From the NCBI GenBank assembly GCA_021432605.1, contig MU271159.1, positions 124,001 through 188,000 of the forward strand: 64,000 bases of DNA, written 5' to 3'. Shown one piece after another: positions 30,885 to 59,724 of this stretch (the first letter of the stretch is position 1; the number at the start of each line of letters is the position of its first letter). Both the position numbers and the translations under genes were made by a program. Under the pieces are notes generated by a model. The model was given only the letters and a program-made list of their open reading frames with translations, ran no database searches and was not told the origin of the DNA. The stretch is from Coniochaeta sp. PMI_546. Its lineage: Eukaryota; Ascomycota; Sordariomycetes; Coniochaetales; Coniochaetaceae.

Positions 30885-31856
30885 GCCACCAGGCAACGAA
30901 AGGCGGAGCAACAGCCGCTTCCGCTCCAATTCCCTTACTTCTCATGCCTCCCGACCGAGCTCCAAGATATGATTTGGGACTTCGCGGCGTCTCTGCCGAA
31001 AGTCGTCCATATTTTTGTCCAAGGGGGTCGAGTCACCAGAGCATATATTCAGTCTGATGCCTCAAGAGCTTATCAAGCGAGCCGGAAGTATCATGAAAGA
31101 CATAACATGCACAACTTCTCCGCTAACCTTGGACGTATCAAGCTCTGCGTTAATTTCGACTCTGACCTCTTTTTCATCCACGGCCTTGGCCATTGTTCCG
31201 AACTCGCACACCTAGAACCATGTCGAGATCTGAAGAAAGTCATTTTGCCTTGCGAAGTGCCGCCAGGCCTCGCGCAGCTTCTCAAGAGCGAGGACACCGG
31301 ACAGCTCCGACTGCAAGAAGTATGGGTTCTCCGACGAAGGGACGCGGATATCAAGACGTTTTATCCGGCCCCAGAGTGGCAGTTCCAGCGCCATTGCCCT
31401 CTTCACCACCACGAGCTACTTCCGTCTGCATTCTTCCCCGTACCTTGTATACAAGACAGTTACAGAGGGCTATGGAAAGATGAAAGAAGACGATTTTGCC
31501 CGGCATGCAACTGGAACGCGGAATTCACTGGTATCTCAGCTACCGCCCTAGATCCGATGCCCCATCACTTCAGACTCACATATGACGCTTTGTTACCGAG
31601 ATATCCATCTGCGTCTCAGGTAAGTCGCGCGCGGAACCCCGTACTCAGATGGGTTCGGCACGGAGAGCTGAGCAAGCTCGAATACAATGAACAAGTGGTA
31701 TCGGCGGTTACTTGCTTAACCAATACCGGTCCAGCAAGATGTTCTCATTGAGAAATGGGGGAAAGGCAACGTCCGCTTTGTGTTGTGTGTGAGGAATCAA
31801 GCTACATGTACCCTTCCTCCGGTATCTTTAGATCCTTATCATACGCTTTTAAAGAG
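30885..31856 (+). pseudogene. 2EXR-domain (F-box-like) protein gene, 3' end split by element D
   Basis: The 2EXR signature reads FPYFSCLPTELQDMIWDFA (30930-30986), which lies partly upstream of the first ATG (30969). The true start is therefore in an unseen upstream exon or lost; the frame is open back to 30885. The 651-base segment 30969-31619 continues HIFVQGGRVTRAY, GRIKLCVNFDSDLFFIHGL, DLKKVILPCEVPP and RLTYDALLPRYPS. Intron 31620-31734 (GTAAGT, GCTTAACC branch, CCAG) leads in phase to DVLIEKWGKGNVRFVLCVRN and then YHTLLK at 31849, where D is inserted (TSD AAGAG). Right of D, at 58701, the same frame reads Ser-Pro-stop. The 2EXR family is expanded in Pezizomycotina and its function is unknown. 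Confidence 0.72.
31620..31734 (+). other. Intron of the 2EXR gene (115 nt)
   Basis: GTAAGT at 31620, CTTAAC branch near 31714, CCAG ending at 31734. It joins two phase-0 exons and recovers the conserved W-x-x-G-x-V-R ending typical of 2EXR proteins. Confidence 0.65.
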
Positions 31857-32269
31857 TGTTACGAACCAACTCTATTGGGTCAGGCTACAACAGCCGGAAC
31901 GGAACAACCGAGGCACCGTTGGCTAATTAAGAGCGGGATTACGGGATCTAATAGTAACAAGTAATCTAACGTTCCGGGAACTTAAGATTATTTTACGAAT
32001 AACGTTCTAAGAGGAAGGCCTTAAGATTACGGTTAAGAATAATCTATAAAGAAATATTCATATTTAAATAATCGTTATAATTAAATAATTACGAGTTATT
32101 TCTATAACGATTAATATATAATTCTTTATATTTAATTACTTACCCTTTTTTAAAGTAATAATCTACCTTTTAACTAAATACGATTTTATTATAACCTACC
32201 GTACGTACCTAATTAATTATTAATAAACCTTAAATATCGGTTAATATTTAAAAATATTAATTCGTTATA
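31857..32269 (+). repeat. 5' LTR of element D
   Basis: Starts TGTTACGAACC and ends AATTCGTTATA (RIP form of GTTACA). It is the same length as 58288-58700, with the shared core AATTAAGAGCGGGATTACGG. Confidence 0.9.
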
Positions 32270-32378
32270 CGTTAATCGTTCTTATTTAACTTAATTACCT
32301 ACGTATTATTAAATAGTATTTTATAAATAACGATATCGTTAATATCGAAAGTAAGTAACTCGAACTTATAAGCCTAAG

Positions 32379-32770
32379 TGTTACAAACCTATAGGTGACA
32401 GAGGACACCCCGCCAATAGATAAGGAACATATATGCGAGGCTTATCGCATTGTATGGACAAGGGACCTCGGTCACGTGACTGATAGATGCGATAGCTGTC
32501 TATCACAGCTATTATTGATATTTCGAATAGCTATCTATCACAGCTATTACCATAGTCTCTACAAGTATATAGGAAGGAGTCTCTCTAGATTCCGCTATAG
32601 ATAGTTCTTGATCACCTAGTAATCAATCTAAGTATTCAATCGAGGTTATCATTGAGTAAGATACTTATCTTAACGATACCAGAGTGAAGACTACTTGTTA
32701 TACCTTAACTTACTTACCCTAAGTAATAGAACTTATCTTCTAATCCTTAGCCCGTCTTGGGATCGTTACA
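32379..32770 (+). repeat. 5' LTR of element A
   Basis: TGTTACAAACC to GGGATCGTTACA, ends intact. It contains two 23-bp direct repeats 35 bases apart (32492-32514 and 32527-32549) and the palindrome GTCACGTGAC at 32471-32480. Confidence 0.95.
32471..32480. promoter_or_regulatory. Possible bHLH (CACGTG) site in the LTR of A
   Basis: A perfect 10-bp palindrome, GTCACGTGAC, also kept in the 3' LTR (38836-38845). CACGTG is the classical E-box bound by bHLH proteins such as Cbf1. Its position in the 5' half of the LTR (U3) fits a transcription control site. Inference only. Confidence 0.35.
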
Positions 32771-35700
32771 TTTTGATTACTCCTATTCGGTAGGTTAACC
32801 TTATACCAAACAGCTAATAATCATGTCGACCAAAAGAACCGTTATAATTACGTCCAAGGAAAAGCTTACTTAGTAGGTTACTAAGTTCGGAGCTGAATTG
32901 GAGAAGTTAAAGAACGAATATAAAGAACTGAAATCTAGATCGGCGGAACCTAAGAACGACCCCAAGACTACGGAACGAGCGGCTAAGATCAAGGCCCCGC
33001 GGCCGGAACCCTACGACAGGAACCGCGAAGGGTTATAAGCCTTTATCACCCAGACTAATACGTACTTCTTAATTAACAAGGCGGTTTTCGCTTACGAGTA
33101 CGAAAAAGTAGTATACGTGGTAGGAATACTAAGGGGAAGAGTTACGGAATGGTACGAACTAACGTTACGCGACTGGATAGATAATACTACTAACGATCGT
33201 AAACCCGAAACCAGAATACTATTTAACAATCTCGACAAATTCTAGAAGAAACTCCGCGAGACGTTCGGCAGTCCTGATAAGACGCGAGTAGCCGAACGAT
33301 AGCTGATAAACCTAAGGTAAAAGGGATCGGCGGGAACCTATGTAACCGAGTTCAAACGCTTCTCTATAAAACTCGATTTAAGGGAAACGGCTTTTATAAT
33401 TCAGTTCTACGGAGGACTTCGTAATAACGTCAAGGACGAACTTAATAAGACCGATAGGCCTAAGACTCTCTATAAGTACGTTATACAAGCTATCTTGATC
33501 GACAATCGATTATATAAACGATAGTTGGAAAAGAAACGAGGAAGAGTTACGTAAGGACGGTCTAATAACAATAATACCGCGAATACTAGCCAGAAGAAGT
33601 CTACCGCTTATGGTAGTTATTCTGGACTAATAGAACTGGACGCCACCCGGAAGGACAACTCCAAGAAAAACAAGAAGTACTTTAATTACGGTAAGTAAGG
33701 ATATTTCGCTAACAAATATCGATAACCCAAGAAAGCCTAGAAACTAGTCCCCGAAAACAAGGCTTAGGTAACGATAAGGGACGATAGGTCCCGCGCTATC
33801 GTAATAATACGTAGAAAACAATAATATAAGGTACTTCTTAGACTACCGGGAGAAGAAGTCGACCTGGTAGTAGTACCAGGGTACGACATCACAGATGCAA
33901 CGTATCTGGTCAGTCTGTTGGATCGGGAGTAGGACGAAATCGAGGAAGAACAAACACCCTTGTATAGAGATTACGAGTCGGTATATATTGATTCGGTTTA
34001 CTATAACCAGATTTCGTAGAATTCGTACGTCTTTCACCGTTGTATTTGGTATATATAGGAAAAACTAGATTACAAATAGATACTAGTACGAATACTAATA
34101 ACTAGACCGATATCTTACCCTTATAGACCGAGAGATATCGAAGGATACGAGGAAGTATATAGGAACGGATAGTACCTATTACTAGCGCTACCCGGAACTA
34201 TATAATCACGATTCGACCTAACGGGGTAGGAGTTCCTGATAGCAACAGAACCTAGACGAAGAATCGAAGGTAGGAACCAAACACAAGCTACTTACCTACC
34301 CGAGAACTCGGTAAGATAAACGGGACGACTAGGACGTTCGGTATTAGAAATCGTAACGTAAGCTACGACGGGAAGAGAACCGACCGAAGAGTTCTAAGCG
34401 CGACAATACCGTATTAACGCGCAAGTCAATACGTACTTGGCAAGTTGCCGGGACTATAAATTATAAGTATAAAGGAGGGTCGAAGAGTTAGTATAAGAAG
34501 CGGACCAAATAGACAAACGCTTGGATAGATTATTGGGGCCCGAGCCGGAAGTAGAGGAGGAGGAGAACGGGGAACCGTTAGAACCTTCCTTAAGGGCCAA
34601 AGACAGACCTGAATATTACGGTATTTCGCTCCGAAGATCAGAAAAACGATCAAAAAACGACAAACGTCGATTGTAAAGGGACTATATCGACGTGATATAG
34701 AAAGATCCCTATATACGACCGTAGGAGTTGAATACTTACGAATTACGATTAATATATAAGGAAGTTATACCTAGGCAATGATAGATAACGGAGTATAAGG
34801 AAATTATATCTCGCCAAATCTCGTTAATACGTTACGATTACCTTGGAAGAAAAAGGACGAGCCCTACCGACTTAGAACTATTGATAGAAACCTTATCGAT
34901 TATAGATAAGGACTGGTAGACATAGAGATTACGCCCTTTCAAGTTATTATCCAAGGCTATGATCAAGAGATAACGTTTGATATTACGGAGATCTTATCGT
35001 ACGGTATAATATTAGGGATACCTTGGCTACGAGCGAATAACCCCCGAGTTAACTAGAGAATAGGCCAACTTTAGTAGGATACGCTAAGAAAAGAGTTAGC
35101 CTCTATAGAGAGCGGACCTTACGAGGAAAAGCCTATACGTAACTTTAGAAGAGCTCTGATGATCTACGAAACGATCATAGAAACTCAGTTTATATCGACG
35201 CGAACGATTCCGAAGGAATACTATCGATATAACAAACTGTTCAAGCCCGAACTTAAGATAGGACTGCCTGAATATAATCGCTAGGATTACGAGATCAATT
35301 TCTAGCTAGGTAAGGAGCCCGGATTTCATAAGATTTACCTTTTTAACGACTTATAATTATAAGCGTTAAGAGAATATATTGATAAAAATCTAAAGAAAGG
35401 TTATATTCGACTATTACAATTACCAGTAGGATACCCTATCTTATTCGTACCTAAGAAAAACGGGAAGTTACGTCTCGTTATAAACTATCGATAGCTTAAT
35501 AATATTACTATCAAAAATCGAGGACTATTGCCTCTTATATCCGAATTAAGAGATCGGCTGTATAAGGCCCGATGGTTTACTATCCTAGACTTTAAGAGAA
35601 TATATAACCTAATACGAGTTAAGGAAGGAGATAAGTAGAAGACGGTATGGCGATCTAGGTTGGGACAATACGAATATTGTATTATACCCTTCGGGCTCGC

Positions 35701-38141
35701 TAACGTACCGGCTTCTTTCCAGAGGATAATTAACTACGTATTTCGAAGGTAGTTGGACGACTTCGTCGTCGCGTACCTCGATAATATCTTAATCTACTCG
35801 GAAGACCTCGAATAATATAAGAAATACGTTTACCTCGTCTTATAGGTATTATAAGACGCGAATTTATTAGTCGAACCCGAGAAGTACGAATTTTACTAGT
35901 AAAAAGTGAAATTTTTCGGTTACGTCATATTACTAGGTTAGTTCGAGATAGACCTAGATAAGCTAAAGGTTATTAAGGAATAGCCCGTACTAGAAACGGT
36001 TACGGGAGTACGAGCCTTTCTAGGGATTACTAACTTCTATCGGAAGTTTATCAAGGATTATGGCAAGATCGCAATACCCCTTACCAACCTTACTAAGAAA
36101 GACTTAAGGTTCGAATAGACTTCGAGGGAAGAGGAGGCGTTCTAAGAACTCAAGAGGAGGATCTTAAGCTAGCTAGTACTAGTTATTACGGATCCCGAGA
36201 AACCCTACGAAATAGAAACCGATACGTCGGAATTCGTATTCGGAAACTAGTTAGGACAAAGGGATGAACAAGGAAGATTGTACCCAATAGCATTCTTCTC
36301 GAAGAAGCTAAATAGACTAGAACTCAATTATAGTATACTAGATAAAGAACTGATAGCTATTATTAAGGCGTTCAAAGAATAGAAATACTACCTTATAGGA
36401 GCAAGATACAAGGTGAAAGTCTTAACGGATTACAAGAATCTTATTACGTTTACTTCTACGAAGGAACTCAATAAGCGACAAATCAGATAGTATAAGTTCC
36501 TTACCGATTTCGACTTCGAAATTGTATATAGGAAAGGAAGTGAAAATGGTAGAGCGGACGTTCTTAGTCGACGAGAAGATCTAAGACTAGAAAAGGAAAT
36601 GCGTTCGGCGAACTTCCTTAGGACTAACTAACAAGGAAACCTTAAGCTCGACATATAGGTCGGAATAATATAGAACGTAGAACCCGAAGAATAGTAGGCG
36701 GAAAGGATTAAGAAGTATCGGAAGGAAGAAGCAAAGGAAGATGTTACCTTTATACTTCCGTCATACCGCGGCTTATTATAGTTTAGGAATAAGGTATACG
36801 TACCTGACAAACTATAGAAGGAACTGGTAGAAGAATTCTATAAATATCTACTATATAGATACTAAGGAGTCTATAAGGATAAGGAACGCGTACGGCGGAC
36901 CTACGACTTTCCGGGATTGGATAAGGTAGTCAAATAAGTTGTTAGCGAATACGACGAGTATAACAAAGCCAAGTCAAACAGATACAAGCTATACGGGCTG
37001 TTATAACCTATATAACTACCGGAGAAACTATAGGAAATGGTTACGATGGATTTTATCGTCAAACTACTAGTATCGAAAGAACCTATGATTGGGATCGTTT
37101 ACGATAGTATATAGGTAGTTGTAGACAAATTCTCCAAATACGCGTACTTCGTACCGTATAAGGAAACGAATACGGTAGAAAACATGGCCTACGCCTTCTT
37201 GAGGGTAGTAACTAGTCAATATAGACTACCTAAACAACTTGTTACCGATAGAGACAAGCTATTTACTTCAAAGTTTTGGATAGTATTAATACGACAAATC
37301 GGAATCAAATATAAATTATCGATATCATTCTACCCGTAGACAGACGGACAAATAGAACGGACAAACCAAACCCTTGAATAGTATCTGAGGATATATATTA
37401 ATGAAAAACAAGATGATTGGGTCAGGTGGCTACTAATAGTACAATAGGCTTATAACAATGTACCAAGCGAAATACTAAACGGGGACTTACCGTTCTTTGT
37501 CAATTACGGTTACGAGCCTATTATAAGGGAGACATTGGGGAACGAACTAGTAGATCTAGAATTACTATAAGCGAAACGTACTACGGAACAAATAGAGCTA
37601 CTCTATAAAAGACTCCGTAGACATATAGAAGACCTCAACCTGAGAATAGCACGATACGTAAACTAGAAAAGGTTAAAGGGACCAACCTTATAGGAAGGAG
37701 ATAAAGTCTACCTTATACGACGTAATATCAAAACTAAGCGTCCAAGTGACAAACTAGACTGGAAGAAGATCGGACTTTTTAGGATTAAGAAAAAATTGTC
37801 TGATTTGAACTACGAACTCCAGCTACTAGTACGAGTACGAATCTACCTAGTATTTCATATCTCGCTCCTTGAACCAGTACTTAAGAACGTAAGGTTAGCA
37901 ATAGATGTCGAAATAGAACCAATATAGGAATACGAAGTAGAAAGGATTCTCGGTTACAAAAGGGAGAACGACAAAAACCTCTACTACGTCAAATGGAAAG
38001 GTTACGACGACTCGGAAAATACGTAGGAATTAGAAACTTACTTTTAGAACTATTAGCAATTATTATAGGAGTTTCGGTCTATAATAGCATTATTAAACCA
38101 AGAGTCGAAGGGGATAGGACCACGTCGCCGTAGATTGCGTC

Positions 38142-38534
38142 CTAACCGGAAGTGAAATCTTTATCAAGAGGAAGAGACGTAGCGGAAGGCGGACGATTCT
38201 CGGCAACTCTTACGGCCTCGCGATCGGCTTCCTCCTTTTCGACCCGTTCCAATTCTTTTATACTCGTTATACCCTTACGTATAACGCGTAGTATCTTTTC
38301 GAACCATAATTTCTTTTGACGACGTAATCGTTCTAGCTTCGCTATAATCTCGTCAATCTCTCGCTCTATAGAAGAGAGCTGGTCGCCAATCCTGGTCAAG
38401 TCCTTAACGGAAGGGCCTTGTACGTCGTACTTGGAACGACCAAGACGGACGCATTCCGCGTAACGGGAGGAGTCGCCTTCCGACACTTGATAGGTTTTGA
38501 GACCACGAGTCTTATAGGAAGAACAGGTAGGCAT
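38142..38534 (-). CDS. Antisense ORF of element A: Cys/coiled-coil protein of unknown role
   Basis: An open frame of 130 codons on the strand opposite to gag-pol, starting MPTCSSYKTRGLKTYQ and passing through YAECVRLGRSKYDVQGPS to a charged heptad-rich segment (IDEIIAKLERLRRQKKLWFE and ITSIKELERVEKEEADRE, residues about 60-115). The N-terminal part looks like a worn zinc-binding region; the rest should form a coiled coil. Relics of the same ORF lie at the matching place in B (1650-2066), C (about 47230-47350) and E (about 51830-52055). It is part of the retroelement family. I recall similar proteins annotated as hypothetical in many Pezizomycotina genomes. Confidence 0.6.
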   Translation of the reverse strand: MPTCSSYKTRGLKTYQVSEGDSSRYAECVRLGRSKYDVQGPSVKDLTRIGDQLSSIEREIDEIIAKLERLRRQKKLWFEKILRVIRKGITSIKELERVEKEEADREAVRVAENRPPSATSLPLDKDFTSG

Positions 38535-38723
38535 TTTGACGGACTGAAGAAGGACGGCTGCCCAAAGAGCGTTCTTGCGAACAATTGATAATTCGACGGA
38601 TTTCTTTTGCTTCTATATACTACGGTCAGACATGATAACGATAAAGAAGGGGAAACCTTCGGACGCAACTCACATAGGCTGTTGGTATTACTTATGAGAA
38701 GCACTAGGCCTTAAAGATAACGG

Positions 38724-38743
38724 CTAAAGGAGGAGGGGAATAA
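38724..38743 (+). other. Polypurine tract of element A
   Basis: The purine-rich run AAAGGAGGAGGGGAA lies directly before the 3' LTR, the usual plus-strand primer site of LTR retroelements. Confidence 0.7.
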
Positions 38744-39135
38744 TATTACAAACCTATAGGTAATAGAGGATATCCCGCCAATAGATAAGGAATATGTATA
38801 CGAGGCTTATCGTATTATATAGACAAGGGACCTCGGTCACGTGACTGATAGATACGATAGCTGTCTATCATAGCTATCACTGATATTTCGAATAGCTATC
38901 TATCATAGCTATCACTACAGTTTCTACAAGTATATAGGAAGGAATCTTTCTAGACTCCGCTACAGATAGTTCTTGATCACCTAGTAATCAATCTAAGTAT
39001 TTAATCGAGGTTATCATTGAGTAAGACACTTGTCTTAACGATACCAGAGTAAAGATTGTTTGTTATACCTTAACTTACTTACCCTAAGTAACAGAACTCA
39101 TCTTCTGATCCTTAGCCCGTCTTGGGATCGTTATA
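38744..39135 (+). repeat. 3' LTR of element A
   Basis: Pairs with 32379-32770; in the stretches I compared, the differences are transitions. Followed by TSD CTAAG. Confidence 0.94.
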
Positions 39136-41449
39136 CTAAGCCGTACCTTAGGGAATTACGTTTTAAATTATAACGAACGAAATTATCTAACTTCGAACTA
39201 TATTTATATAGTTTTAAGAGTAATAAGTTAAGGAAAAAGGTAACCGCTTTAAAGTATCTTAATTTCAAACTTATAATAGGAATTTAAAAACCCTTTAAGG
39301 TTTCCTTATCTAATCTAAGGCCTATTTCCGGTATAATATATACGATTTTCCGAATAAAGAACGTAAGGTCTTTTTCGCCGTTTACCTTTTAAAAGGTAAT
39401 ATATTTAATTAGTTTAAACTTATCTTACGAGATTACTCCGAAAACGGAAAATTAGATCGCGACGATAAGATTAATAAGATCTTTAAATCTTTTTTAAACT
39501 TCGCCGATATTTTTAAAAAGACTTTTAGAATTCTAAATAAAGAAAGAATAACTAAACGTAAGTTATAAATTCTCCGATAAAAAAGGTTAGCTTTGAGTTA
39601 TATTTCGTAATTTAGATAGATCTTTTTTAAATTAGAATAAGAAGACGAACTTCTTATAATATAATTTTATTAAAGATTTAAAGAAGACGTTAAAAACGAA
39701 TTGGTTAAAGAAGACCGACCCGACGAACTATTTATTTATATTAAGATAATAATTAAGATCGATAACCGTTTATATAAACGACGTATAAAAAGGAAAAGAA
39801 CCGCGAAGATTCCTTAATAGCTAACTAAAAAGGGTATAAATTAATATTTTAAAGAAAATCTAAAATTATAATACCTTTTATAAATAACGAAACGGGCTAA
39901 TAACGTTCGACGTCGTTTAGCGATATAAGAAAAAGGAAAAGAAAGATATAAAGTATTCTAATTATTAGAAAAAAAGATATTTAGTTCGGGAATATTAGTA
40001 ATTTCGAAGATTAAAAGAAAGAATTACGAACCGATAAATTAATATTATTAATAAAAGTAAGTACGAAATTACGAACTTTATATTAACCGTTATTAAAACT
40101 CGAAATCCGATAAATTACGATAAGACGGATTAGTTTTATAGAAACTATTTAATAAAGATCGTACGACGATACGACGTTAGAAGAAAAAAAAACTTTATAA
40201 GATAATAACGATAATATATTAGCCGAATACGAAGTAAGTATAATAGAAATCGAATTAAAAGAAGTTATCGTAAAAACTTACGAAAATTAACGAAAGGCCG
40301 TATTACGGACTTTAGAAAAAGAATACTTTTCGTTAAAAGAAAAAGTAACTCTTATTACAGAATAGAGAAATTTCGATTAAACCTTAACGTTTTTAAAAGA
40401 TTTAATACGTATCCGTTATTAACCCGTTACCCAAAATAATATAATAATCGTTTATAACGATACCGTTAAAAACGTTAAAATCGGGATATTTCCGGAAAAT
40501 TAAAAGTAGATAAAAGACCGAAATAACGATTATTATAATATAAGCCTAGACGGGGAATATTATTATTTAATCTATTAGGTATCGTATATTTACGACGAAT
40601 ATTTCGAATACCTAATACCTAAGGTTAAGAATAACTTTTTCTTACGACGATAAAAAGACGATATTATTTATAACCTTTATTATTAAGAAAAATTAAAATT
40701 ATAAAGAAAAGTTAAGAAATATATTTATTATAAGGCGGTTATATTAATTAAAGATCTAAAATACCCCCAAATATACGAAAAAGAAATATTTTAAGACTAT
40801 AAAGAACCTAAATATAAATAATATCGCGTTAGTAAGATATCGTAGTAATATATATATATATAATAGATAAGAAACGAGAAGAAAAAAGGTTTATCGTTAC
40901 CTTATAACCGGGATAAGAACGTCGGACTCCCGTTTAGAAGAGAACGATAACCTAAATAAAACCTAACGAATAAACGTACGAAAAATAACCTACGTCGTAA
41001 AACTAGTTCGAGATAACGTAAAGGTTTAAAGAACTTTTTAAAGAATAAACGATAAGATTATTAAAACCCTCATAATTAGGAACTGTTTATAAGTTATTAA
41101 ATAAACTATCCCCGAGGCGGGAAAAATTAATTAAGGCTAGTATAACCGATTAAAAGTTTACCGAGGTATTAAAAAAATATAAGAAAAACGATAACCTTAT
41201 ATAATACGTTAGTTAGTTATTAAAAAATAACCGATAAATTCGACGTTAACGGAAGGATAAAACCTTTTAGGAAACGGTACCGTTTAATTCGGGAAGTTAT
41301 AAATATAACGTTTAAGATTCAGAAAAAGTTTAACGAAAGTTAATCAAATAATAATAACGAAAAGTAAAAAACGGGAAAGACCGTTTATAAAAAGATTATA
41401 ACCGGATCTGATAAATAAGTTTTTAACGATTATTCGAAAACTAAGTAAT

Positions 41450-41845
41450 TATTACAAACCTATAGGTAACGGAAGATACCTTACTAATAGATAAAGAATA
41501 TATATACGAGGCTTATCGTATTATATAAGTAAGGGACCTCGGGTTACGTAACTAATAGATACGATAGTTATCTATCGTAATTATTACTAATATCCCGGAT
41601 AGCTATCTATTACGGATATTACTATAGTTTCTATAAATATATAAGAAGGAGTTTTTTTAAACTCCGTTATAACTAGTTCTTAATTACTTAGTAATCAATC
41701 TAAGTATTCAATTGAGGTTATTATTTAAATAAGGTATTTATCTTAACGATACCAAAGTAAAGATTATTTATTATACCTTAACTTACTTACTTGCTAAGTA
41801 ATAAAACCTACTTTCCGATCTTAAACCTCGTTTTAGATCGTTATA
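41450..41845 (+). repeat. 5' LTR of element C
   Basis: Starts TATTACAAACCTATAGG and ends GATCGTTATA. It is followed by the leader TTTTAATCACTCTTATTC, the RIP form of the leader of A. Confidence 0.88.
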
Positions 41846-44800
41846 TTTTAATCACTCTTATTCAATAAATTAACCTTATACCAAATAGTTAATATAATAC
41901 CCGGAATACCCGTACCTTAGTAAACCTTTATAGCTTAGGTTTAAGCTTAGGTTTAGGCGAACGATCTAACGGTAATAATCGTATAACTATAAACGAAAAT
42001 TGTTATTCTTAAAGAAAGATTTAAAATCGATTTTACGGTTAAGATTAAAATTCCGCGTTTTAAATCTTACGATAAAAATAAAAAAGGGTTATAAGTTTTT
42101 ATTACGTAAACTTACGTATATTTTAAAATATACGTATCGTTTTCTCTTTAAAAATACGAGAGAACGATTTATTTAAGAAGTTTATTAAAAAAAAAGGCGG
42201 CGGAATAATTTAAACCTAACCTTTAAGATTTTTTATAAAACTAGTTAAATACGGAAAGACGGAAACCGGAAACCTACGTTATATTTTCTAATATCGACCG
42301 GTTATTCGAAAAACTTAAAGAAACTTTCGGAAATCCTAACGAATAAAAGTCGGCGGAACGATAACTTCTATCTTTAAGATAAAAAAACTCGGTAAGAATA
42401 TATACGGTAGAATTTAAACGAATTACGGCTAAATTCGACCTAAAGGAATAAATATTATTCTTTTATTTTTACGGAAGATTATAAGATAATATTAAAAATA
42501 AATTTAATAAAGAAAATCGACCGGATACCTTATATAAATATATCGTATCCGTAATCAAAATCGATAATCGATTATATAAACGAAAATTCGAAAGAAAGAA
42601 AAGAAAAATCTTTTAAACGATAAGGAAAACCGCGAATTCCGGAAAAAAACGATTTACGGTTACGGACTTTTATCCGGGATTTATAAATCTAAACTTTATT
42701 TAACGAAGCTAACTTAAAAAAAAAGGTAAATATTTTAATTATAAGAAATAAAAATATTACGTTAATAAATATCGTTAACTTAAAAAGATTTGGAAACTAG
42801 TCCCCGAAAATAAAACCTAAATAATAATAAAGGATAATAAATCCCGCGTTATCGCGATAATACGTAGAAAATAATAATACGAGGTACTTTTTAAATTACC
42901 TAAAAAAGAAATCGATTTGGTAATAATATTAGGATACGATATCGTAAACGTAACGTATCTAATTAATTTATTAGATTAAAAATAGGACGAAATCGAAAAA
43001 GAATAAATACTTTTATATAAAGATTACGAATCGGTATATATCGATTTAGTTTATTATAATTAGATTTCGTAAAATTCGTACGTTTTTTACCGATATACCT
43101 AATATATATAGAAAAAACTAAGTTATAAATAGATATTAATACGGATACTAATAACTAAGCTAATACCTTATCTTTACCGATTAAGAAATATCGAAAGATA
43201 TAAAGAAATATATAAAAACGGGTAATACTTATTATTAGTATTACTTGGAACTATATAATTATAGTTTAATTAGACGGGATAAGAATTCTTAACGGCGATT
43301 GAATTTAGACGGAAAATCGAAACGAGGAGATAATTATAAATTACGAACTTACCTAAGAATTCGGTAAAAAGGACGGGGCGATAAAGATATTCGGTATTAG
43401 AAATCGTAACGTAAATTACGACGTAAGAAGAAGAATCGACCGGGGCGTTCTAAATATATTACTAAACCTATAATATATAAACTAATACGTTTTTGGTACG
43501 TTACCGAAATTACGATATATAAGTATAGGAAAGAATTAAAAAAATAAACTAAAAGTAGATTTAAATAAAAGAACGTTTAGGGAAGTTATAAGTTTTAGAG
43601 TCCGAGATAAAAAAAGAGGATTACGGGGAACCGTTAAAACCTTCCTTTAGAATTTAAGATTAATTAAAATATTACGGTATTTCGTTCCCAAAATTAGAAA
43701 AACGGTTAAAAAACGACTAACGTCGATTATAAAAGGATTATATCGACGTAATATAGAAAGATCTTTATATACGACCGTAAAAGTTGAATACTTACGAATT
43801 ACGATTAATATATAAGGAAATTATACTTAGGTAATAATAGATAACGGAATATAAGGAAATTATATTTCGCCAAATCTCGTTAATATATTACGATTCTTTT
43901 AGAAAAATAAAGACGAACTTTACCGATTTAAAACTATTAATAGAAACCTTATCGATTATAAATAAAGACTAGTAGATATAAAGATTACGCCCTTTTAAGT
44001 TATTATCTAAGGTTATAATCAAAAGATAACGTTTGATATTATAAAGATCTTATCGTACGGTATAATATTAAAGATACTTTAGTTACAAACGAGTAATCCC
44101 CGAGTTAATTAGAAAATAAGCTAACTTTAATAAAATACGTTAAGAAAAAAGTTAGCTTTTATAAAAAGTAAACCTTACGAGGGAAAGCCTATATATAATT
44201 TTAGAAGAGTTTTAATATTCTACTAAATAGTTATAAAGATTTAGTTTATATCGACGCGAACGATTCCGTAAGAATATTATCGATACGATAAACTATTTAA
44301 ACCTAAACTTAAGATAGGATTACTTTTATATAACCGTTAAGATTACGAAATCAATTTCTAACTAGGTAAAAAGCCCGGATTTTATAAGATTTACTTCCTT
44401 AACGATTTATAACTAAAAGCGTTAAGAGAATATATTAATAAAAATCTAAAAAAAGGCTATATTCGACTATTATAATTATTAGTAAGATACCCTATCTTAT
44501 TCGTACCTAAGAAAAACGGGAAGTTACGTTTCGTTATAAACTATTGATAGCTTAATAATATTATTATCAAAGATCGAAGATTACTACCTTTTATATCCGA
44601 ACTAAGAAATCGGTTATATAAAGCCCGATAGTTTATTACCTTAGACTTTAAGGGAATATATAACCTAATACGAATTAAAGAAAAAGATAAATAAAAGACG
44701 GTATAACGATCTAAGTTAGGATAATACGAATATTATATTATACTTTTCGAGCTCGTTAACGTACCGGTTTCTTTCTAAAAAATAATCAACTACGTATTTC

Positions 44801-48385: not shown

Positions 48386-48776
48386 TATTATAGACTTACG
48401 GCTACGGAAAAACACCCCGCTAATAGATAAGGAACATATAAACGAGGCTTATCGTATTATATAGATAAGGGACTTAGGGTTACGTGACCGATAAACGTAA
48501 TAGCTATCTATTATAACTATTACTAATATTCCGAATAGTTATTTATTATAACTATTATCATATTTATTCAAGTATATAAGAAAGAGTCCTTTTAGACTCC
48601 GTTATAAATAGTTCTTAATTACCTAATAATCAATCTAAATATTCAATTAAGGTTATCATTTAAGTAAGATATTTATCTTAACGATACTAAGTAAAGATTA
48701 CTTGTTATACCTTAACTTACTTACCTTAAGTAATAAAACTTACCTTTTGATCTTAAACCTTATTTAAATCGTTATA
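48386..48776 (+). mobile_element. Solo LTR of the A/B family inside D
   Basis: Starts TATTATAGACTTACGG and ends ATCGTTATA, with 5-bp flanks CGAAT (48381-48385) and CGAAC (48777-48781), a TSD pair differing by one C/T. D's pol region continues on both sides. No interior is left, so the element was lost by LTR-LTR recombination. Confidence 0.87.
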
Positions 48777-51036
48777 CGAACGTTAAAGAAGTTAGAGGTT
48801 TTTTTAGATTTACTAACTTTTATCGAAGGTTTTTAAAAAGGTACAACCGGATAGCCGCCCCCTTTACGAACCTAACGAAAGGAAATAAGGATTTTTAATA
48901 GAACCCGGAGGTAAAGGAAACGTTTAAAAGGATCAAAAAGGTAGTTAGTAAACGACTAATTACCGCGTTTTTAAATCTAAAGAAACCTTATAAGGTCGAA
49001 ACCGATATATTTAACTATATATTCGGAAGATAGATAGGATAACGAGATTTCGAAAAACGGTTATATCTTATTATATTTTTCTCGAAGAAACTTAATAGAC
49101 CTAAACTTAATTATTAGATTTATAATAAGGAACTAATAATAATTATTAAGGCTTTTAAAGAATAAAAACCGTATTTTAACGGGACGATATATTAGGTAAA
49201 AATCTATATAGATTATAAGAATCTAATATATTTTATAATTACGAAAGAGCTTAATAAACGATAAACTAGATAGGTAGAGTTCTTATTAAAGTTTAACTTT
49301 CAAATTATCTACTAAAAAGGAAACGAAAACGGCCAAACGGATACGTTAAGCTAAAGACTAGATTATAAACAAAACGAACTATTAATTTACTAAACGATTT
49401 TCAAAATTAATACGAACGGGGACTTTAAATAAGCGAAATAGTAAATTAACGTTTTATTTACCGTTTACCTAAATAGAAAATAGGAAGACGAAATTAGGGA
49501 TATTAGTTAAGCTTACTAGTTAAAGATTAAGAATAGGAAAATACTTATACCAAAGTTTTTTTAGGAAGACTTAATCAAAGAATATTATATATACCTAATA
49601 TATAAATATATAGGGATTTCGAAAACGGTATAGAAGATTTAACGAACTTACGATTTTAATAAGTTCTAAGAACGCGTTATAAAAGTCGTCGGTTAATATT
49701 AATAATATAACTAGAACAAAGTAATACGATATAAACTATACGGAAAGCTAAAACTTCTACCGGTATTAGAAAGAGCTTAATAATATATCGTATTCGATTA
49801 TATCGTTAAATTATCCTTATTAAAAGAACTAATAATAAAAGTACGATACGATAACGTCTTCGTTATTATCGATAAACTAACCAAATATAAGTATTTTATA
49901 CTATACGTAAAACCTAATATAGCCGAAGACCTTACGTATACGTTTTTAAAATATATTATTAATAATTACGGATTACTTACCAAAGTAATCTTTAACCGAA
50001 GAACGATATTTACGAGTAACTTTTAAAAAGCGTTTATAATAAGATTAGGAGTAAAGTATTCCTTATCAACCGCCTATTATTTATAAATAGATAAACAAAC
50101 CGAAAGATTAAACTAAGTCCTAAAATAATACCTATAATATTATATTAATTATAAATAAGATAATTAGGTAAAACTCTTACCTTTAATATAGTTCATATAT
50201 AATAACGTAAAATAAGATAATATCAAATACTCGCCCTTCTTTATAAATTATAATTTTGAACTAAAGATTAACTAGATACCTTACTAATCCCGAGAAATAT
50301 CTAAAGCTTTTATAATAATTAAAGAACTTAAAGAATTATATAATAAGTTACGATAAAACTTAAAACTCGTAAAATAAACCGTAACGAAATATTATAACGA
50401 AAGAAGGTTAAAAAGACTAACCTTTAAAAAAGGAGATAAGGTTTACTTATTTAGGAAAAATATTAAAACCAAATGATTAAACGATAAATTAGACTATAAA
50501 AAACTTAGACCCTTTAAAATTAAAGAAGTAATATTGGATACCAATTATAAACTTCGCTTACTAAAGACGATAAAGATTTACCCGGTATTTTATATATTAT
50601 TATTAAAACTAATAACGGCTAACGCCAAACTTTAAGAATTAGTTAAAATAGAATCCGTAGAATTAAAATACGAAGTTAAAGTAATCTTCGACTTTAAGAA
50701 AAGAGGGTATTAGATAAAATACTTGATCAAATAGAAAGATTATAATAACTCGGAAAACATATAAGAACTAATTAAGAACTTGACGAATTATTAATAATTA
50801 CGTAAATAATATTACCGTTAATACCTTAACCCGTCTTTAACAAATTATTACCGAGGTTAAGTATAAGGCTTTAAAGATCCCCGCCTAAACTAAACGTATT
50901 CTAATCGATCTCGTCGGAGATACTTATAACCTATAAATCCCTTACGATAAAACTATCTTAAACGTCGAAGGACTAAATAATATCGTTATCTTCGTCTAAC
51001 TCTTATATCCCTTATTAAAATAACTTTTTACCTCGT

Positions 51037-51427
51037 TATAACGATCTAAGACGGGGTTTAAGATCAAAAGGTAAGTTTTATTACTTAAGGTAAGTAAGTT
51101 AAGGTATAATAAGTAATCTTTATTTAGTATCGTTAAGACAAATATCTTACTCAAATGATAACCTTTATTGAATATTTAGATTGATTATTAGGTAATTAAG
51201 AACTATTTATACCGGAATTTGAAAAGACTCTTCCTTATATACTAATAGAAACTATAGTAATATAGGTAATATACCCGTATCCCTTATATTATAATACGGT
51301 TATTACGAACGTATTTTAAATATTAATTACGTAACCCGGGGTATTTAACTTATATAATACGATACGCCTTATATATTTGTTCTTTATCGATTGGCGGGAT
51401 TCCTTCCGTAACCGTAAGTCTATAATA
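51037..51427 (-). repeat. 3' LTR of element E
   Basis: TATAACGATC to GTCTATAATA, followed by the TTATCCCCTTTTTC purine-tract complement. Confidence 0.9.
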
Positions 51428-54400
51428 TTATCCCCTTTTTCCTTTTGGTTATTATCCTTAAGGCCTAATACTTCTTATAAATAATACTAATAGCTTATAT
51501 AAATCGCGTCCGAAGGTTTCCTTTTTTCTATCGTTATTATATTTAACCGTAATATATAAAAACGAATAAAACAAACGAAAAGCTTTATAAAGCGAAAGTA
51601 TAAACTACTTTCTACCTTATCGGGTATAGAGTCCGATATTATACCTACTTATTCGAACTACGAAAAGAAAGGCTTTACGACTTACGAAGTCTCCCTCTTT
51701 AATCTTAATTATTATATTCCTTACGTCTAAAAATCGTTATCTTATTACGATATCTACGACTTTTTAATACGTAACCTAAAATAAGCGAGGAAATAGTTTT
51801 ACGTTTATAAAACTATTTTAGAATAGGCGGAAGAAGAGCTTTAAACGTAATTTCGGAAAATTGAACGTTTTCGTAAATAGAAGAAAATATAGTTTGAAAA
51901 GATAATATATATTATCCGTAAAAGTATAACGAATATAAAAGAATTAGAACGGGTCGAGAAAGAAGAAACCGATCGTAAAATAATAAGAGTTACCGAAAAC
52001 CGTCTATCTTCCGTTATATCTTTTTCTTTTAATAATAATTTCATTTCGGACTAAGACGTAATTTACGGTAACGTAATTATATCCCCTTCGACTTTTAAGG
52101 TAATAATACTATTATAGTACGGAATTCTTATAATAATTACTAATAGTTCGTAAGGTAAATTTCCGGTTCTTACGTATTTTCCGAATTATCGTAGTTCTTT
52201 TATTTGATATAATAAAAATCTACGTTTCTTTCCTTTTTATACCTAAGGATTTTTTTATTTTATATTTTTATATCGGTTCGATTTTAACGTTTATTATTAA
52301 CTTCGCGTTTTTAAATATTAGTTCGAAAAGCGAAATATAAAATATTAAGTAAATACGTATGTTCGTTAGTAGTTAAAATTTATAGTTTAAATCAGATAAT
52401 TTTTTCTTAAAAGTCCGATTTTTTTCTAATCTAATTTATCGTTTAGTCATTTTATTTTAATATTTCGTCGTACGAGGTAGATTTTATTTCTTTTTTATAA
52501 GGTTAGTCTTTTTAACCTTTTCTAGTTTACGTATCGCGTTATCCGTAGGTTAAATAATTCTATATATCCGCGAAATCTCTTATAAAATAACTTTATTTGT
52601 TCCGCGGTATATCTTACTTATAATAGTTCCGGATCTAACGGTATTAGTCCGTTTCCCAATATCTCTTTTATAATAAACTCGTACCCGTAATTAATAAAGA
52701 ATGGTAAGTTCCCGTTTAATATTTCGTTAAGTATACTATTATAAGCCTATTATACTATTAATAGCTACCCGACCTAATCGTTTTATTTCTCGTTAATATA
52801 TATCCGTAGATATTATTTAAAAGTTTGGTTTATTCGTTTTATTTGTCCGTTTATTTATAAGTAGACCGATATCAATAACTTATATTTAATTCCGATTTAT
52901 CGTATTAACGTTATCTAAAACTTTAAGGTAAATAGTTTATCCTTATCGGTAATAAGTTATTTAAGTAATTTATATTAGCTTATTATTACTTTTAAAAAGG
53001 TATAGGTTATATCTTCTGCCGTATTCGTTTCCTTATACGGTATAAAATACGCGTATTTAGAAAATTTGTTTATAACTACTTATATATTATCGTAAGTAAT
53101 TCCGGTTATAGGTTCCTTTAATATTAATAGTTTAACGATAAAATCTATTATAACTATTTCCTATAATTTTTCTAATAGTTATATCGGTTATAATAACCCG
53201 TACGGTTTATATTTATTTGATTTGGCTTTGTTATATTCGTCGTATTCGCCGACGACCTATCTAATTATTCTATTTAGTTTTAGAAAGTTATAAATCCGCC
53301 GTATACGTTCCCTAATTTTATAAACTTTTTAATATCCTCGTAACGGATATTTATAGAATTCCTTTACTAGTTCCTTTTATAGTTTGCTAGGTACGTATAC
53401 TTTATTTCTAAACTATAATAGGTTATAATATAATAGAAGTATAAAGGTAATATCTTTCCTTATTTCTTCTTTCCGATATTCTTTAATCTTTTTTACTTAT
53501 TATTCTTCGGGCTTTATAATCTATATTATTCCGATTTATATATCGAGTTTAAAGTTTCCTTATTGGCTAATCTTAAAGAAGTTCGCCAAACGTATTTCCT
53601 TTTCCGGTTTTAGATTTTTTCGTCGATTAAAAACGTCCGTTCTATTATTTTCGTTTCTTTTCTTATATATAATTTCGAAATCGAAATCGGTAAGGAATTT
53701 ATATTATCTAATTTATCGCTTGTTAAGTTCTTTCGTAAAAATAAACGTAATAAGGTTTTTGTAATCTATTAAGATTTTTACCTTATATTTTACCCTTATA
53801 AGATAATATTTCTATTCCTTAAATACCTTAATAATAGCTATTAGTTCCTTATCTAATATATTATAATTAAGTTCTAGTTTACTTAGCTTTTTCGAAAAAA
53901 ATATTATTAGGTATAATTTCCTTTATTTATCCCTTTATCCTAACTAGCTTCCGAATATAAATTCCGACGTATCGGTTTCTATTTCGTAAAGTTTTTCGGG
54001 ATCCGTAATAATTAATACTAGTTGATTTAAGATCCTATTTTTAAGTTCTTAAAACGTTTCTTCTTTTTTCGAAATCTATTCGAACTTTAGATTTTTTTAG
54101 TAAAGTTAATAAAGGGTATTACGATCTTATTATAATCTTTAATAAACTTCCGATAGAAGTTAGTAATCCTTAGAAAAACTCGTATTCCCGTAACCGTTTT
54201 TAATATAAGTTATTCCTTAATAACCTTTAACTTATCTAAATCTATTTCGAACTAACCTAATAATATAACGTAACCGAAAAATCTTATTTTCTTTTAATAA
54301 AATTTATATTTTTCGGGTTCGATTAATAAATTCGTGTTTTATAATACTTATAAAACGAGGTAAACGTATTTTTTATATTATTCGAAGTCTTCCGAATAGA

Positions 54401-57337
54401 TTAAGATATTATCGAAATATATAACGACGAAATCGTCTAATTACTTCCGAAATATATAGTTAATTAGTTTTTAGAAAAAAGCTAACGTATTAACGAACCC
54501 GAAAAATATAATATAATATTCGTATTATCCTAACCTAGATCGTTATACCGTTTTCTATTTATCTCCCTCTTTAATTCGTATTAGGTTATACGCTCTTTTA
54601 AAGTCTAAGGTAATAAATTATTAGGCTTTATATAACCAATCTCTTAATTTAGATATAAGAAATAATAATCCTCGATCTTTAATAATAATATTATTAAGCT
54701 ATCGATAGTTTATAACGAGACGTAACTTCCCGTTTTTCTTAAGTACGAATAAGATAGGATAACTTATAAGTAATTATAATAGTCGAATATAGCTTTTTTT
54801 TAGATTTTTATTAATATATCCTCTTAACGCTTTTAGTTATAAATCGTTAAAAAGGTAAATTTTATAAAATCTAGGCTCTTTATCTAATTAGAAATTGATC
54901 TCGTAATCTTAACGGTTATATAAAAGTAGTCCTATTTTAAGCTCGGGTTTGAATAGTTTATCGTATCGATAGTATTCTTACGGAATCGTTCGTATCGATA
55001 TAAATTAAGTTTTTATAACTATTTGGTAAAATATTAGAGCTTTTTTAAAATCGTATATAAGTTTTCCCCCGTAAGGTTTACTTTCTATAAAGGTTAATTC
55101 TTTTCTTAACGTATCTTATTAAAATTAGCTTATTTTCTAATTAACTCGGAGATTATTCGCTCGTAACCAAGGTATCTTTAATATTATACCGTACGATAAA
55201 ATCTCCGTAATATCGAACGTTATCTCTTAATTATAGCCTTAGATAGTAATTTAGAAAGACGTAGTTTCTATATTTACTAATCTTTATTTATAATCGATAA
55301 GGTTTCTATTGATAGTTTTAAATCGGTAAAGTTCGTCTTTTTTCTTCTAAAGTAATCGTAACGTATTAACGAAATTTGGCGAGATATAGTTTCTTTATAT
55401 TCCGTTATCTATTATTACTTAGGTATAACTTTTTTATATATTAATCGTAATTCGTAAGTATTTAATTCTTACGGTCGTATATAAAGATCTTTCTATATTA
55501 CGTCGATATAATCCTTTTATAATCAACGTTAGTTGTTTTTTAATCGTTTTTCTAATTTTCGGAACGAAATACCGTAATATTCTAATCGATCTTAGGTTTA
55601 TATAGGAAATACCGACGGTTTTCCGCGGTCGTTTTCCTCCGTCTTAGCTTTTAAGGTTTATAACTTATTCTAACGTTCTTTTATCTAGTTTTATTTTTAA
55701 TCTAACTCTTTAACCTTACCTTATACTTAGGTTTTAAAAGTACGGGCTCGGGCTAAGAACTTATTAGTCGACTTTATAGTTTGTATTATAATTTCTAATA
55801 TTAAATATCCTAGTCGTTTTATTTTTTTTACTAAGCTTTCGGGTAAGTAGGTAACTTATAATTAGTCCTTATCTTCGATTCTTTATCTAGGTTCTATCGT
55901 TATTAAAAACTCTTATCCCGTTAGGTTAAATTACGATTATATAATCCTAGGTAAACTTAACAATAAGTATTATCCGTTCTTATATACTTCTTCGTATCTT
56001 TCGATATCTTTTAGTCGATAAAGGTAAGGTATCGGTTTAGTTATTAATAATCGCGCCGGTATTTATTTATAACCTAATTTCTTTTATATATATTAAGTAT
56101 AACGGTAGAAGATATACGTATTCTACGAAATCTAGTTATAATAAACCGAATTAATATAAACCGATTTATAATCTTTATATAAAAGTATTTGTTTTTCTTC
56201 GATTTCGTCTTATTCCCGGTCTAATAAGTTAATTAGATACGTTATATCCGTAATATCGTACCCTAATATTATTACCAAGTCGATTTCTTTTCTCGGTAAT
56301 CTAAGAAGTACTTCGTATTATTATTTTCTATATATTATCGCGATAACGCGGGATTTTCTATCCTTTATTATTACTTAAGTTTTATTTTCGGGGATTGGTT
56401 TTTAAATTTTCTTAAATTAACGATACTTATCCGTATAATATCTTTATTTCTTATAATTGAAATATTTACTTTTTTTCTTAAATTAGTTTCGTTAAATAAC
56501 GTTTAGGTTTATAAATCCCGAATAAAAACCTATAACCGTAAATCGTTTCTTTTTCGAATTCGCGGTTTTTTTTATCGTTTAAAGAACTTTTTCTTTTCCC
56601 TTTTCGAATCTTCGTTCGTATAATCGATTATCGATCTTAATTACGGACGCGATATATTTATATAAGGTATCTGGTCGATCTTCCTTATTAAATTTATCTT
56701 TAATATCGTCCCGTAATCCTTTATAAAAATAAAGGAATAAGGCTTGTTTTTTTAGATTAAGTTTAGCCGTAATTCGTTTAAATTCTACCGTATATATTCC
56801 TACCAAACCTTTTTATCTTAGGGATAAAAGTTATCGTTCCGCCGTTCTTTATTTATTAGGATTACCGAAGGTTTCTTTAAGTTTTTCGAATAATCGGTCG
56901 ATATTTAAGAATATAACGCGGGTTTCCGGTTTCTATTCTTCCGTATTTAACTAATTATCTAAAAAAATCCCGAAAGTTAAATTCGAACTATTCGGTTACT
57001 TTTTTTTTCAATAGATTTCTTATATAGATTACCTTTTCGTATTCTTTAAAAAAGGACTTGGTATATATTTTGAAATACGTATATACCTAAGTAATAAAGG
57101 CTTATAACCTTTCTTTATTCTTATTATAAGGTTTAGGGCGCGGAACCTTAATCTTAACCGTAAAGTTAATCTTAAGTTTTTTTTAAAGGCCGTAATTTTT
57201 ATTTATAACTACGTAATTATCGCCGTTATATCGTTAACCTACGTTTAAGTTACGGTTACTTATTAAGGTACGGGTATTCCGGGTACTATATTAGCTATTT
57301 GGTATAAGATTAACTTACCGAATAAGAATAATTAAAA

Positions 57338-57729
57338 TATAACGATCTAAAACAGGGTTTAAGATTAAAAGGTAAGTTTTATTATTTAGAATAAATAAGT
57401 TAAAGTATAATAAGTAATCTTTACTTTAATATCGTTAAGATAAATATCTTATTCAAATAATAACTTTAATTGAATATTTAGATTGATTACTAGGTAATTA
57501 AAAACTATCTATACCGGAATCTAAAAGGACTCCTCCTTATATACTAGTAGAGACTATAATGATATAGGTAATATACCCGTATCCCTTATATTATAATACG
57601 GCTATTACGAACGTATCCTAAATATCAGTTACGTAACCCGGGGTACCTAGCCTATATAGTACGATACGCCTTATATATTTATTCTTTATCGACTAGTAGG
57701 GTTCTTTCCGTAACCGTAGGTTTATAATA
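57338..57729 (-). repeat. 5' LTR of element E
   Basis: TATAACGATC to GGTTTATAATA, directly followed by the TSD CTCGT. Confidence 0.9.
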
Positions 57730-58287
57730 CTCGTTCTTCGATCTTTTTACGGATTTTACGGATCCGGGAAAGACGATTTATAATAATAGTTAATTATTAT
57801 TAAAATACGAATAATACCTCTTTTACGGCCTCTTTATCGTTACGTAATTTCTTTTAAGAAGAAAATAAACGAAATATTAATTAAAAGCTAATAAAAATAG
57901 TTCGAAATAATAAAAAAAAACTAAAAAGTAACGAATAAAAGGAAGCTATTAATATACCGTCGTAAGAACGACCGCGGCGAATATATTTATTATAACAGGA
58001 GTTTTCCCCCGTTATACGGTAAGGTTTATTATTACGGAAATAGAATAAGTAAGGTATATCGGCCGGAATATCTAATTCCTCGACGTATATTATTAAGGTA
58101 AGACGTTTAAGAGTTTTCTTAAAAAAGGATTTCTCGGATTTTTCGTTTTGTTTCTTTTTTACGCGGTTTAATATATTATTAATATTTTAAGAAAAGAAAA
58201 AGGGTACGCGCGATTTACCTTAACGTAAACGTTAATAACGTTTTATAACCTTAGTTTCCGGGACGAAAGCTTAGAAGAAGGATATCG

Positions 58288-58700
58288 TATTACGAACTAG
58301 TTTTATTAAATCAAATTATAATAACGGGAACGGAATAATTAAAGTACCGTTACTTAATTAAGAGCGGGATTACGGGATCTAATAATAACGAATAATCTAA
58401 CGTTCCGGAAACGTAGGATTATTATACTAATAACGTTTTAAGGAAAAGGTTTTAAGATTACGGTTAGGAATGATTTACGAGGAAGTATTTGTATTTAAAC
58501 AATCGTTATAATTAGATAATTACGAATTACTTTTATAATGATTAATATATAATTCTTTATATTTAATTACTTACCCCTTTTTAAAATAATAATCTACTTT
58601 TTAGCTAAATACGATCTTATTATAACTTACCGTACGTACTTAACTAATTGTTAATAGACTCTAAATATCGGTTAGTATTTAAGAATACTAATTCGTTATA
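58288..58700 (+). repeat. 3' LTR of element D
   Basis: TATTACGAAC to AATTCGTTATA, 413 bp, followed by TSD AAGAG. It is more heavily mutated in its first 100 bases than the 5' copy. Confidence 0.9.
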
Positions 58701-59724
58701 AAGAGTCCTTAATGTATTTATTATTTGAAAAATAGTTATTTATAATAACCTTTTCTATTTAGAGAATTATAAGTTAGTTTACCGATCTTATAGTTTTTCT
58801 ATCTACTTAATAGTTTTTTATTCTTTAGAACTAAAGTACTTATATATTATATCGTTATTAATATTAAAACTCGTTTAAGTTAAACTCTTTTCATTTACTT
58901 TATTATCAATTTAATTAGCCGTCTTTTTTTCCTTATTACGAAATAAAAAGAAAATCGTTAATAAATAAATATAATATTTAATATATAATAAAAAAGACTA
59001 ATACGAGGGATATAAAGGAGATATACGAGGATACGGTAAACTACGTAATTAAAAATAATAGACGTATAAAGGGAAAAGACGTTTATTTATAACTAGATAT
59101 AAAGGCTTTGATACTATTCTTTTTTTAAAGAAAGTCGAATATAAACGTAGCTTTATATATAGCTCCGCTAGTATTATATCGAGAGTTCTTTATAAGTAAA
59201 AGTAAAGATATTATAGCTAGGAGGAAGAGTAGATTTAGGTTTGAGAGCTATCGCTAGATATGGATTTCTCTCTAGTATAGATCGTTTAAAGGATGGTCTT
59301 ACGTAACCGGAGCTGAGTTAGGAACTCAGGAGAGCGAGCGGGTGAGCCGGTAAGCCGGACCTAAGCTGGACCTGAGCCAAGCGGCGACTTTGACTAACTA
59401 CGTTAGGTCTTTTATATAGTCGTGTTTCGTCTGAGAATACCAGAATAGTCTAAGGTGCTGAGATATCACGGTCCAGACCTTCTGCTTATCAGCCGTATGC
59501 GAGATATGCGGTCGGTGGCTCGCCATGCCTTACTTCAGAGTTCTTGCCCTAGTCGGCGACCTGTATAAGACTTCGTCTTCCGGTTCTGTTACTGAATGAT
59601 ATAAAACCGCGATACTCGTCGCTATGAGTAACGGTGCAACTGAGGAACAGTCGGCTGTCGCTGTATACCTACATATCACGACTCTACATCTTTTCTCTTC
59701 AAGTCTCCGCCTCTCAGACGGATC
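58701..59724. other. Right flank of D: AT-rich remnant, then normal DNA; no further gene
   Basis: 58701-58709 reads, after the TSD, as the probable last codons (Ser-Pro-stop) of the 2EXR gene. The next 550 bases are AT-rich without open frames, likely host DNA hit by RIP spreading. Composition normalises near 59280. A degenerate GAGCCGG/GACCTRAGC short repeat lies at about 59335-59385. Confidence 0.5.

Follow-up and report, generated by a model that had tools for sequence, protein, structure and literature searches.

A Ty3-type retrotransposon nest in Coniochaeta sp. PMI_546: one old host element and, very probably, at least four later insertions

How many insertions built the AT-rich block that interrupts a gene-like region of the Coniochaeta sp. 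PMI_546 genome (33.5 Mb, 24 contigs), and in what order did they arrive? The 64-kb stretch analyzed here (the window; C17:124001-188000) contains a block with a GC content of 0.26-0.39 in 2-kb bins, flanked by gene-like DNA of about 0.52-0.54, which an earlier note had described from the letters alone as a nest of long terminal repeat (LTR) retrotransposons. The reading that we favor, at a probability of roughly 0.93, is that an old Ty3-type element, D, received at least four later insertions from a second Ty3 family (A, C, E and the parent of a solo LTR), that these elements were mutated by repeat-induced point mutation (RIP), that A came last, and that a deletion removed sequence where C meets D. 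Its observed basis consists of the element boundaries, the target-site duplications (TSDs), the colinearity of the D pieces, the empty sites and the RIP-type mutation spectrum. All copy comparisons below were drawn from the same genome, among the loci that we fetched.

Element D spans 31857-58700 with A, C, the solo LTR and E inside it, and its remaining pieces total 6,977 bp (Table 1). Reading the sequence directly and re-aligning it bore out the nest, its coordinates and its duplications as the earlier note had given them: the two LTRs of D that bracket the nest are both 413 bp long, align without indels and have AAGAG outside each, and the duplications of A (CTAAG), the solo LTR (CGAAT/CGAAC) and E (CTCGT) all lie at the exact LTR edges. 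Given the local base composition, a 5/5 flank match would occur by chance with a probability of about 0.0027 and a match of at least 4/5 with about 0.033; three perfect duplications and one 4/5 duplication are jointly far beyond chance. The LTRs of all four inserts belong to one family that is clearly distinct from D's LTRs. Counted as transversions from the LTRs of A, C lies 3 away, the solo LTR 10 and E, the most distant member in the nest, 24-25.

The earlier note had suggested a search for D copies that lack the insertions, and such copies exist for three of the sites. Uninterrupted D-family copies cross the A site in 17 rows, corresponding to 10 distinct places (15 further one-sided matches stand outside this count), the solo-LTR site in 18 rows (14 distinct places) and the E site in 2 rows (1 place), the latter two sites having no one-sided matches; other D-family copies cease to align before the E site. 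These comparisons drew on genome searches with two D pieces, which gave at least 42 and at least 40 matches with weak matches to the second family among them, and the D pieces in the nest follow the order of the D-family copies. The solo LTR stands alone between duplicates of its target, and its site is empty in the 14 sibling places. There the target's fifth base reads C in 11 cases and T in 3; the T in the left duplicate is thus most simply a later change. Solo LTRs arise by recombination between the two LTRs of an element, and this one has the same near-perfect TSD and sibling empty site as known solo LTRs, with no difference seen.

For D itself, a stretch on contig C2 runs continuously across the insertion site, matching 42 bp of host sequence on the left and 600 bp on the right. 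The alignment has 656 columns with 520 identities, 105 transitions and 16 transversions, with GATAG in place of the window's AAGAG; the C2 stretch is a paralogue that lacks D rather than an allele. The match to the right flank was found by a plain search; on the left, 31815-31848 alone scores 39 in a transition-tolerant alignment, while none of 200 block shuffles of the flank exceeds 36. We rejected the idea that the right flank is an unrelated older repeat with D at its edge, as the C2 paralogue extends about 42 bp into the left flank.

The site of C is different, and here the earlier note was right that C is truncated but described only part of what is missing. Both D sides of this site are present in 14 distinct D-family places, with about 343 bp more between them (342-344 where worked out; two rows that appeared to span the site were treated as right-flank matches extended by chance), and A runs on for 838 bp past the point where C stops. 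Taken together, about 1.2 kb is missing: the 3' end of C plus some 343 bp of the D sequence next to it. The six bases with which C ends align also to D, and the junction resembles a microhomology-mediated deletion, which may have been a single event.

Table 1. Features of the nest and its borders (window coordinates)
Feature	Position	Strand	Details
TSD of D, left	31852-31856		AAGAG; same 5-mer at opposite end
D 5' LTR	31857-32269	+	413 bp; alignment to 58288-58700
D internal piece 1	32270-32378	+	Colinear with D-family copies; left TSD of A (CTAAG, 32374-32378) at its end
Insert A, LTR retrotransposon of second Ty3 family	32379-39135	+	Partly RIPed
A LTRs	32379-32770 and 38744-39135	+	392 bp each; TSD CTAAG twice
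D internal piece 2	39136-41449	+	D-family matches; begins with right TSD of A (CTAAG)
Insert C, A's family	41450-47359	+	Heavily RIPed; internal match to A 33666-38297
C LTR	41450-41845		5' only; 3' end lost
C/D deletion junction	47354-47359		6 bp, TATTTT, alignable to C and to D
D internal piece 3, RT-like	47360-48385	+	Contains assembly gap; left TSD of solo LTR (CGAAT, 48381-48385) at end
Assembly gap	48128-48137		10 N; flanks 48037-48127 and 48138-48228 identical (91 bp)
Solo LTR, A/C/E family	48386-48776	+	391 bp; TSD CGAAT/CGAAC
D internal piece 4; RNase H-, integrase- and SH3_Tf2-1-like	48777-51036	+	Left TSD of E (CTCGT, 51032-51036) at end
Insert E	51037-57729	-	Full-length; heavily RIPed; TSD CTCGT twice
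E LTRs	51037-51427 (3') and 57338-57729 (5')	-	
D internal piece 5	57730-58287	+	Begins with right TSD of E; colinear with C19 D-type copy
D 3' LTR	58288-58700	+	413 bp; RIP heavy over full length
TSD of D, right	58701-58705		AAGAG
Host-side sequence X, right of D	58706-59305	+	Mostly RIPed; with 31815-31856 matches D-less paralogue on contig C2

The mutations in the nest are of RIP type: C-to-T changes, mainly at CpA, on both strands and close to saturation. In host DNA the ratio (CpA+TpG)/(ApC+GpT) is 1.07-1.20. Within the nest it falls to 0.00-0.12 for the D pieces, 0.10 for both C and E, 0.24 for the solo LTR and 0.39 for the interior of A; when only LTRs are counted, C has 0.14, E 0.14 and 0.21, the solo LTR 0.24 and A 0.78 and 0.67. 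The LTR pairs differ almost wholly by transitions, with 63 transitions, 5 transversions and no indels among the 68 differences of the D pair (83.5% identical), 44 transitions and 1 transversion in E (88.5%) and 35 transitions and no transversion in A (91.1%). In the A pair 27 of the 35 changes are CpA/TpA or TpG/TpA; the differences that remain in the D and E pairs are mostly at CpT or ApG, as would be expected once CpA is exhausted. A 2-kb alignment of the A family tells the same story: it has 23 rows, of which C and E were set aside to leave 21 (20 distinct copies, the element at 1073-7833 entering twice; the 20 were fetched from 40 listed, with 135 candidates), and no CpA or TpG is common to all 21, whereas 114 CpA and 76 TpG columns vary solely with TpA. 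The best frame has at least 24 in-frame stops in all 23 rows, and the A-family copies examined are dead.

What is characteristic of RIP, a CpA-preferred change of C:G to T:A on both strands in repeats, is thus present, with the left host flank undepleted, and the RIP machinery is the likely agent. RIP is tied to the sexual cycle and depends on the RIP machinery. We also considered a strand-biased hypermutation of minus-strand cDNA, prompted by the A-rich coding strands of A and of the 1073-7833 element, and rejected it because in a 2-kb alignment both CpA>TpA (80/114 in A) and TpG>TpA (49/76) are affected, so that most of the skew is compositional. In 50-bp bins, the outer ~100 bp of the D 5' LTR (31857-31960) and the adjoining host flank are little RIPed and the remainder of that LTR heavily so; at the other end, the corresponding stretch of the 3' LTR is RIPed, as is the flank beside it, and the RIP boundary falls within the 5' LTR.

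By topology, D preceded the four inserts. That A was the last arrival is well supported, because its RIP is much lighter than that of its same-family neighbors C and E. Over the aligned interior, CpA+TpG against TpA counts are 208 vs 581 in A and 45 vs 776 in C (Fisher p = 2e-32), and C serves as a good internal control for A: it lies in the same D at a distance of 2.3 kb, its LTR differs by only 3 transversions, and it is near saturation. No order can be given for C, E and the solo LTR, because RIP is linked to sex and has come near saturation in them. The solo LTR probably formed while the LTRs of its parent could still recombine, hence before heavy RIP. The earlier note had placed D first and A last, which holds, but its use of heavy and light mutation as a measure of age is not supported, the changes being of RIP type and near saturation.

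From these data we can outline how the nest very probably formed. D, a Ty3-type element, would have inserted at an AAGAG site, been mutated by RIP and served as the target for at least four insertions of the second Ty3 family. C, E and the parent of the solo LTR would have arrived early and become nearly saturated with RIP changes, the parent collapsing to its solo LTR through LTR-LTR recombination. A, which shows only partial mutation, would have inserted after most of that RIP. A deletion, its junction marked by the six-base overlap, would at some stage have taken the 3' end of C together with the adjoining D sequence.

Several observations speak against this history, and they are weighed here together with the alternatives. 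The 5' LTR of D is 88.6% identical to a copy on C19 and its 3' LTR 88.3% identical to another copy on C17, vs 83.5% to each other, and their 5 mutual transversions compare with 3-7 to four other D-type LTRs; LTR similarity thus gives the pairing of D's ends no support. A plain genome search with the left flank (657 bp) returned only the flank itself, no BLAST match spans the joined flanks of D, and the left part of the empty site is seen only in the transition-tolerant alignment. Nor is the nest gap-free, since 10 N that the earlier note had missed lie inside it. With each LTR closest to a different copy and a gap in its interior, D might be a composite, its left part from one D-family copy and its right part from another, brought together by ectopic recombination or through an assembly error at the gap. 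We regard this as very unlikely, given that the TSDs match, the D pieces are colinear, the C2 stretch lacks D and the exact 91-bp overlap at the gap supports a contig join (no other copy seen comes closer to 48138-48380 than 95% identity). Moreover, each of the five transversions is private to one D LTR when compared with the two C19 LTRs (three in the 5' LTR, two in the 3'), which is what divergence of the pair in place would produce. The earlier note had named LTRs that match copies elsewhere better than each other as the finding to count against the nest; on raw identity this is what D presents, but we do not take it as decisive because RIP state sets identity and the transversion counts in these comparisons are similar; what holds up the pairing is the TSD, the colinearity of the D pieces and the paralogue without D. 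Of the LTRs compared, those of A are closest to each other, as are those of E (0 and 1 transversion, vs at least 3). Another way to shorten the history would be to take C and the solo LTR as the two ends of one 7.3-kb element (41450-48776), making three insertions instead of four, since their LTRs share family and orientation at a plausible spacing of 6.9 kb. This has next to no chance of being right: a separate TSD flanks the LTR at 48386, whose site is empty in 14 distinct D-family places, the sequence between (47360-48385) is D, not C, and is present in 14 distinct D-family places, and between the LTR of C and the solo LTR we count 9 transversions and 4 indel events (or 12 and 5 by the other alignment), where the A and E pairs show 0-1 of each.

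The order and the agent of mutation can be questioned in a similar way. The transversion contrast between LTR pairs (5 in D, 1 in E, 0 in A) points in the same direction as the RIP load but is weak (D vs A, p = 0.06; D vs E, p = 0.12), reaching p = 0.005 when A is pooled with the 1073-7833 element, and RIP varies between crosses, which means that the lighter load of A could partly be luck. A might then have arrived with C and E and simply received less RIP, a stochastic process per cross, with too few transversions available to date the inserts. We think this unlikely, because C, with nearly the same LTR and only 2.3 kb off in the same host element, is near saturation; because the 109 bp of D to the left of A hold neither CpA nor TpG and the D piece to its right has a ratio of 0.05; and because the GC of the 2-kb piece, 0.38 in A, is 0.33-0.39 in 18 further A-family places and the 1073-7833 element, with C (0.26) and E (0.25) below all of those, so that A fits a younger cohort. 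As for the agent, AT-biased mutation is common, and the AT-rich decay might be ordinary mutational drift without RIP. This is scarcely credible given how few transversions the LTR pairs contain, how far CpA and TpG have fallen in the D pieces, C and E (0-0.12, vs 1.07-1.20 in the host), that the 21 A-family rows share none, and that the contexts are so unequal, with 27 of 35 changes between the A LTRs at CpA/TpG.

The contrast between a nearly saturated C and an unsaturated A, despite LTRs only 3 transversions apart, may further reflect two separated pulses of one Ty3 family within a single host element, a tentative reading that we hold at somewhat less than even odds. If it is true, the lineage stayed active while its older copies were being destroyed, which would need an asexual interval, a source copy that escaped or re-entry from outside, and such nests could be used as a stratigraphy of RIP exposure, that is of rounds of sex, not of time. 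More generally, A and the nearly saturated C and E in one host element provide a small internal control for RIP timing in Coniochaeta, and the locus is a worked example of how RIP-degraded nests can be resolved by TSDs, sibling empty sites and transversions. Its lesson is that raw LTR identity and mutation load are unreliable as clocks.

The assignment of both families to Ty3 follows from domain matches in stop-to-stop pieces. A has an RT (reverse transcriptase)-like piece (35363-35491) that has no Pfam match and hits retroviral and Ty3 RT in the PDB weakly (best E 0.04), followed by RT_RNaseH_2 (36251-36379, E 7e-12), rve (37115-37336, E 3e-6, below the cutoff; Ty3 Gag-Pol chain 7q5b, E 9e-5) and SH3_Tf2-1 (37694-37924, E 1e-12). 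D has an RT-like piece (47662-47859; E 4e-10 to that of A in a single BLASTP comparison), RT_RNaseH_2 (48902-49030, E 9e-4, below the Pfam cutoff), an integrase-like piece (49784-50023; BLASTP E 3e-14 to the integrase piece of A) and SH3_Tf2-1 (50477-50632, E 1e-7). Neither the RT-like nor the integrase-like piece of D gave a relevant Pfam match, nor the latter a PDB match. RT, RNase H, integrase is the Ty3 order, and as judged from these pieces both D and A qualify as Ty3/gypsy elements, by that order in both and by paired LTRs and a short TSD in D.

Both also carry, 2 nt after the 5' LTR, 9 nt complementary to a site within the LTR (32773-32781/32618-32626 in A; 32272-32280/32106-32114 in D), for which 8 and 50 of 1000 shuffles, respectively, were equally good. 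All nine pairs are kept in 10 of 11 other D-family copies, in one of them with a change on both sides. In self-priming of the Tf1 type, an element's transcript begins with a stretch complementary to its own primer-binding site, and the complement in A and D resembles this; it is not significant in C, E and the 1073-7833 element (998, 733 and 97 per 1000).

Compared with known systems, D and A share with Ty3-type (Metaviridae) elements that carry a Tf2-like integrase tail both 5-bp TSDs and the order RT-like, RNase H, integrase, SH3_Tf2-1; unlike such elements they come here as two distinct families with RIP-broken frames, none of the A-family copies examined being open. The AT-isochores of Leptosphaeria maculans are described as mosaics of RIP-degraded elements (PMC4210507, PMC3493481). 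The likeness to the present locus lies in truncated, RIP-degenerated mosaics in AT-rich blocks amid gene-rich, GC-balanced DNA (PMC4210507); the differences are that the Coniochaeta nest is resolved insertion by insertion through TSDs and empty sites, and that its host is a root endophyte (PMC6757388). In Pyrenophora teres, nested insertions are described as hampering comparisons between RIP-affected elements (PMC5915480). Our searches of the open-licence literature found no paper on this locus; there, going by titles, transposable elements and RIP in Coniochaeta look little studied. The nest is ordinary fungal biology, well resolved.

The gap inside D can be accounted for without a rearrangement. 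The 91-bp stretch beside the 10 N is single in 14 distinct D-family places, and the gap is most simply read as the place where two contig ends overlap but were not merged; we rejected a tandem duplication at 48037-48228, as the repeat flanks the 10 N and is single in those places. At C19:460700-470699 (L009) lies a D-type copy whose LTRs are 1 transversion apart; some of its stretches are only ~70% alike to D, as A-family DNA is, and it is possibly another nest.

Around the nest, the Pfam matches of ten host-side open reading frames were limited to a Gpa2-type receptor and a protein kinase, plus one match under the cutoff, and ARAGORN found no tRNA within the 64-kb window. A second AT-rich block at 23500-28500 is strongly RIPed and has no match of at least 60 bp to the rest of the window. 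A further full-length A-family element lies on the minus strand at 1073-7833, with TSD GATTG on both sides and RIP as light as in A, and an LTR fragment of the A family occupies positions 1-137.

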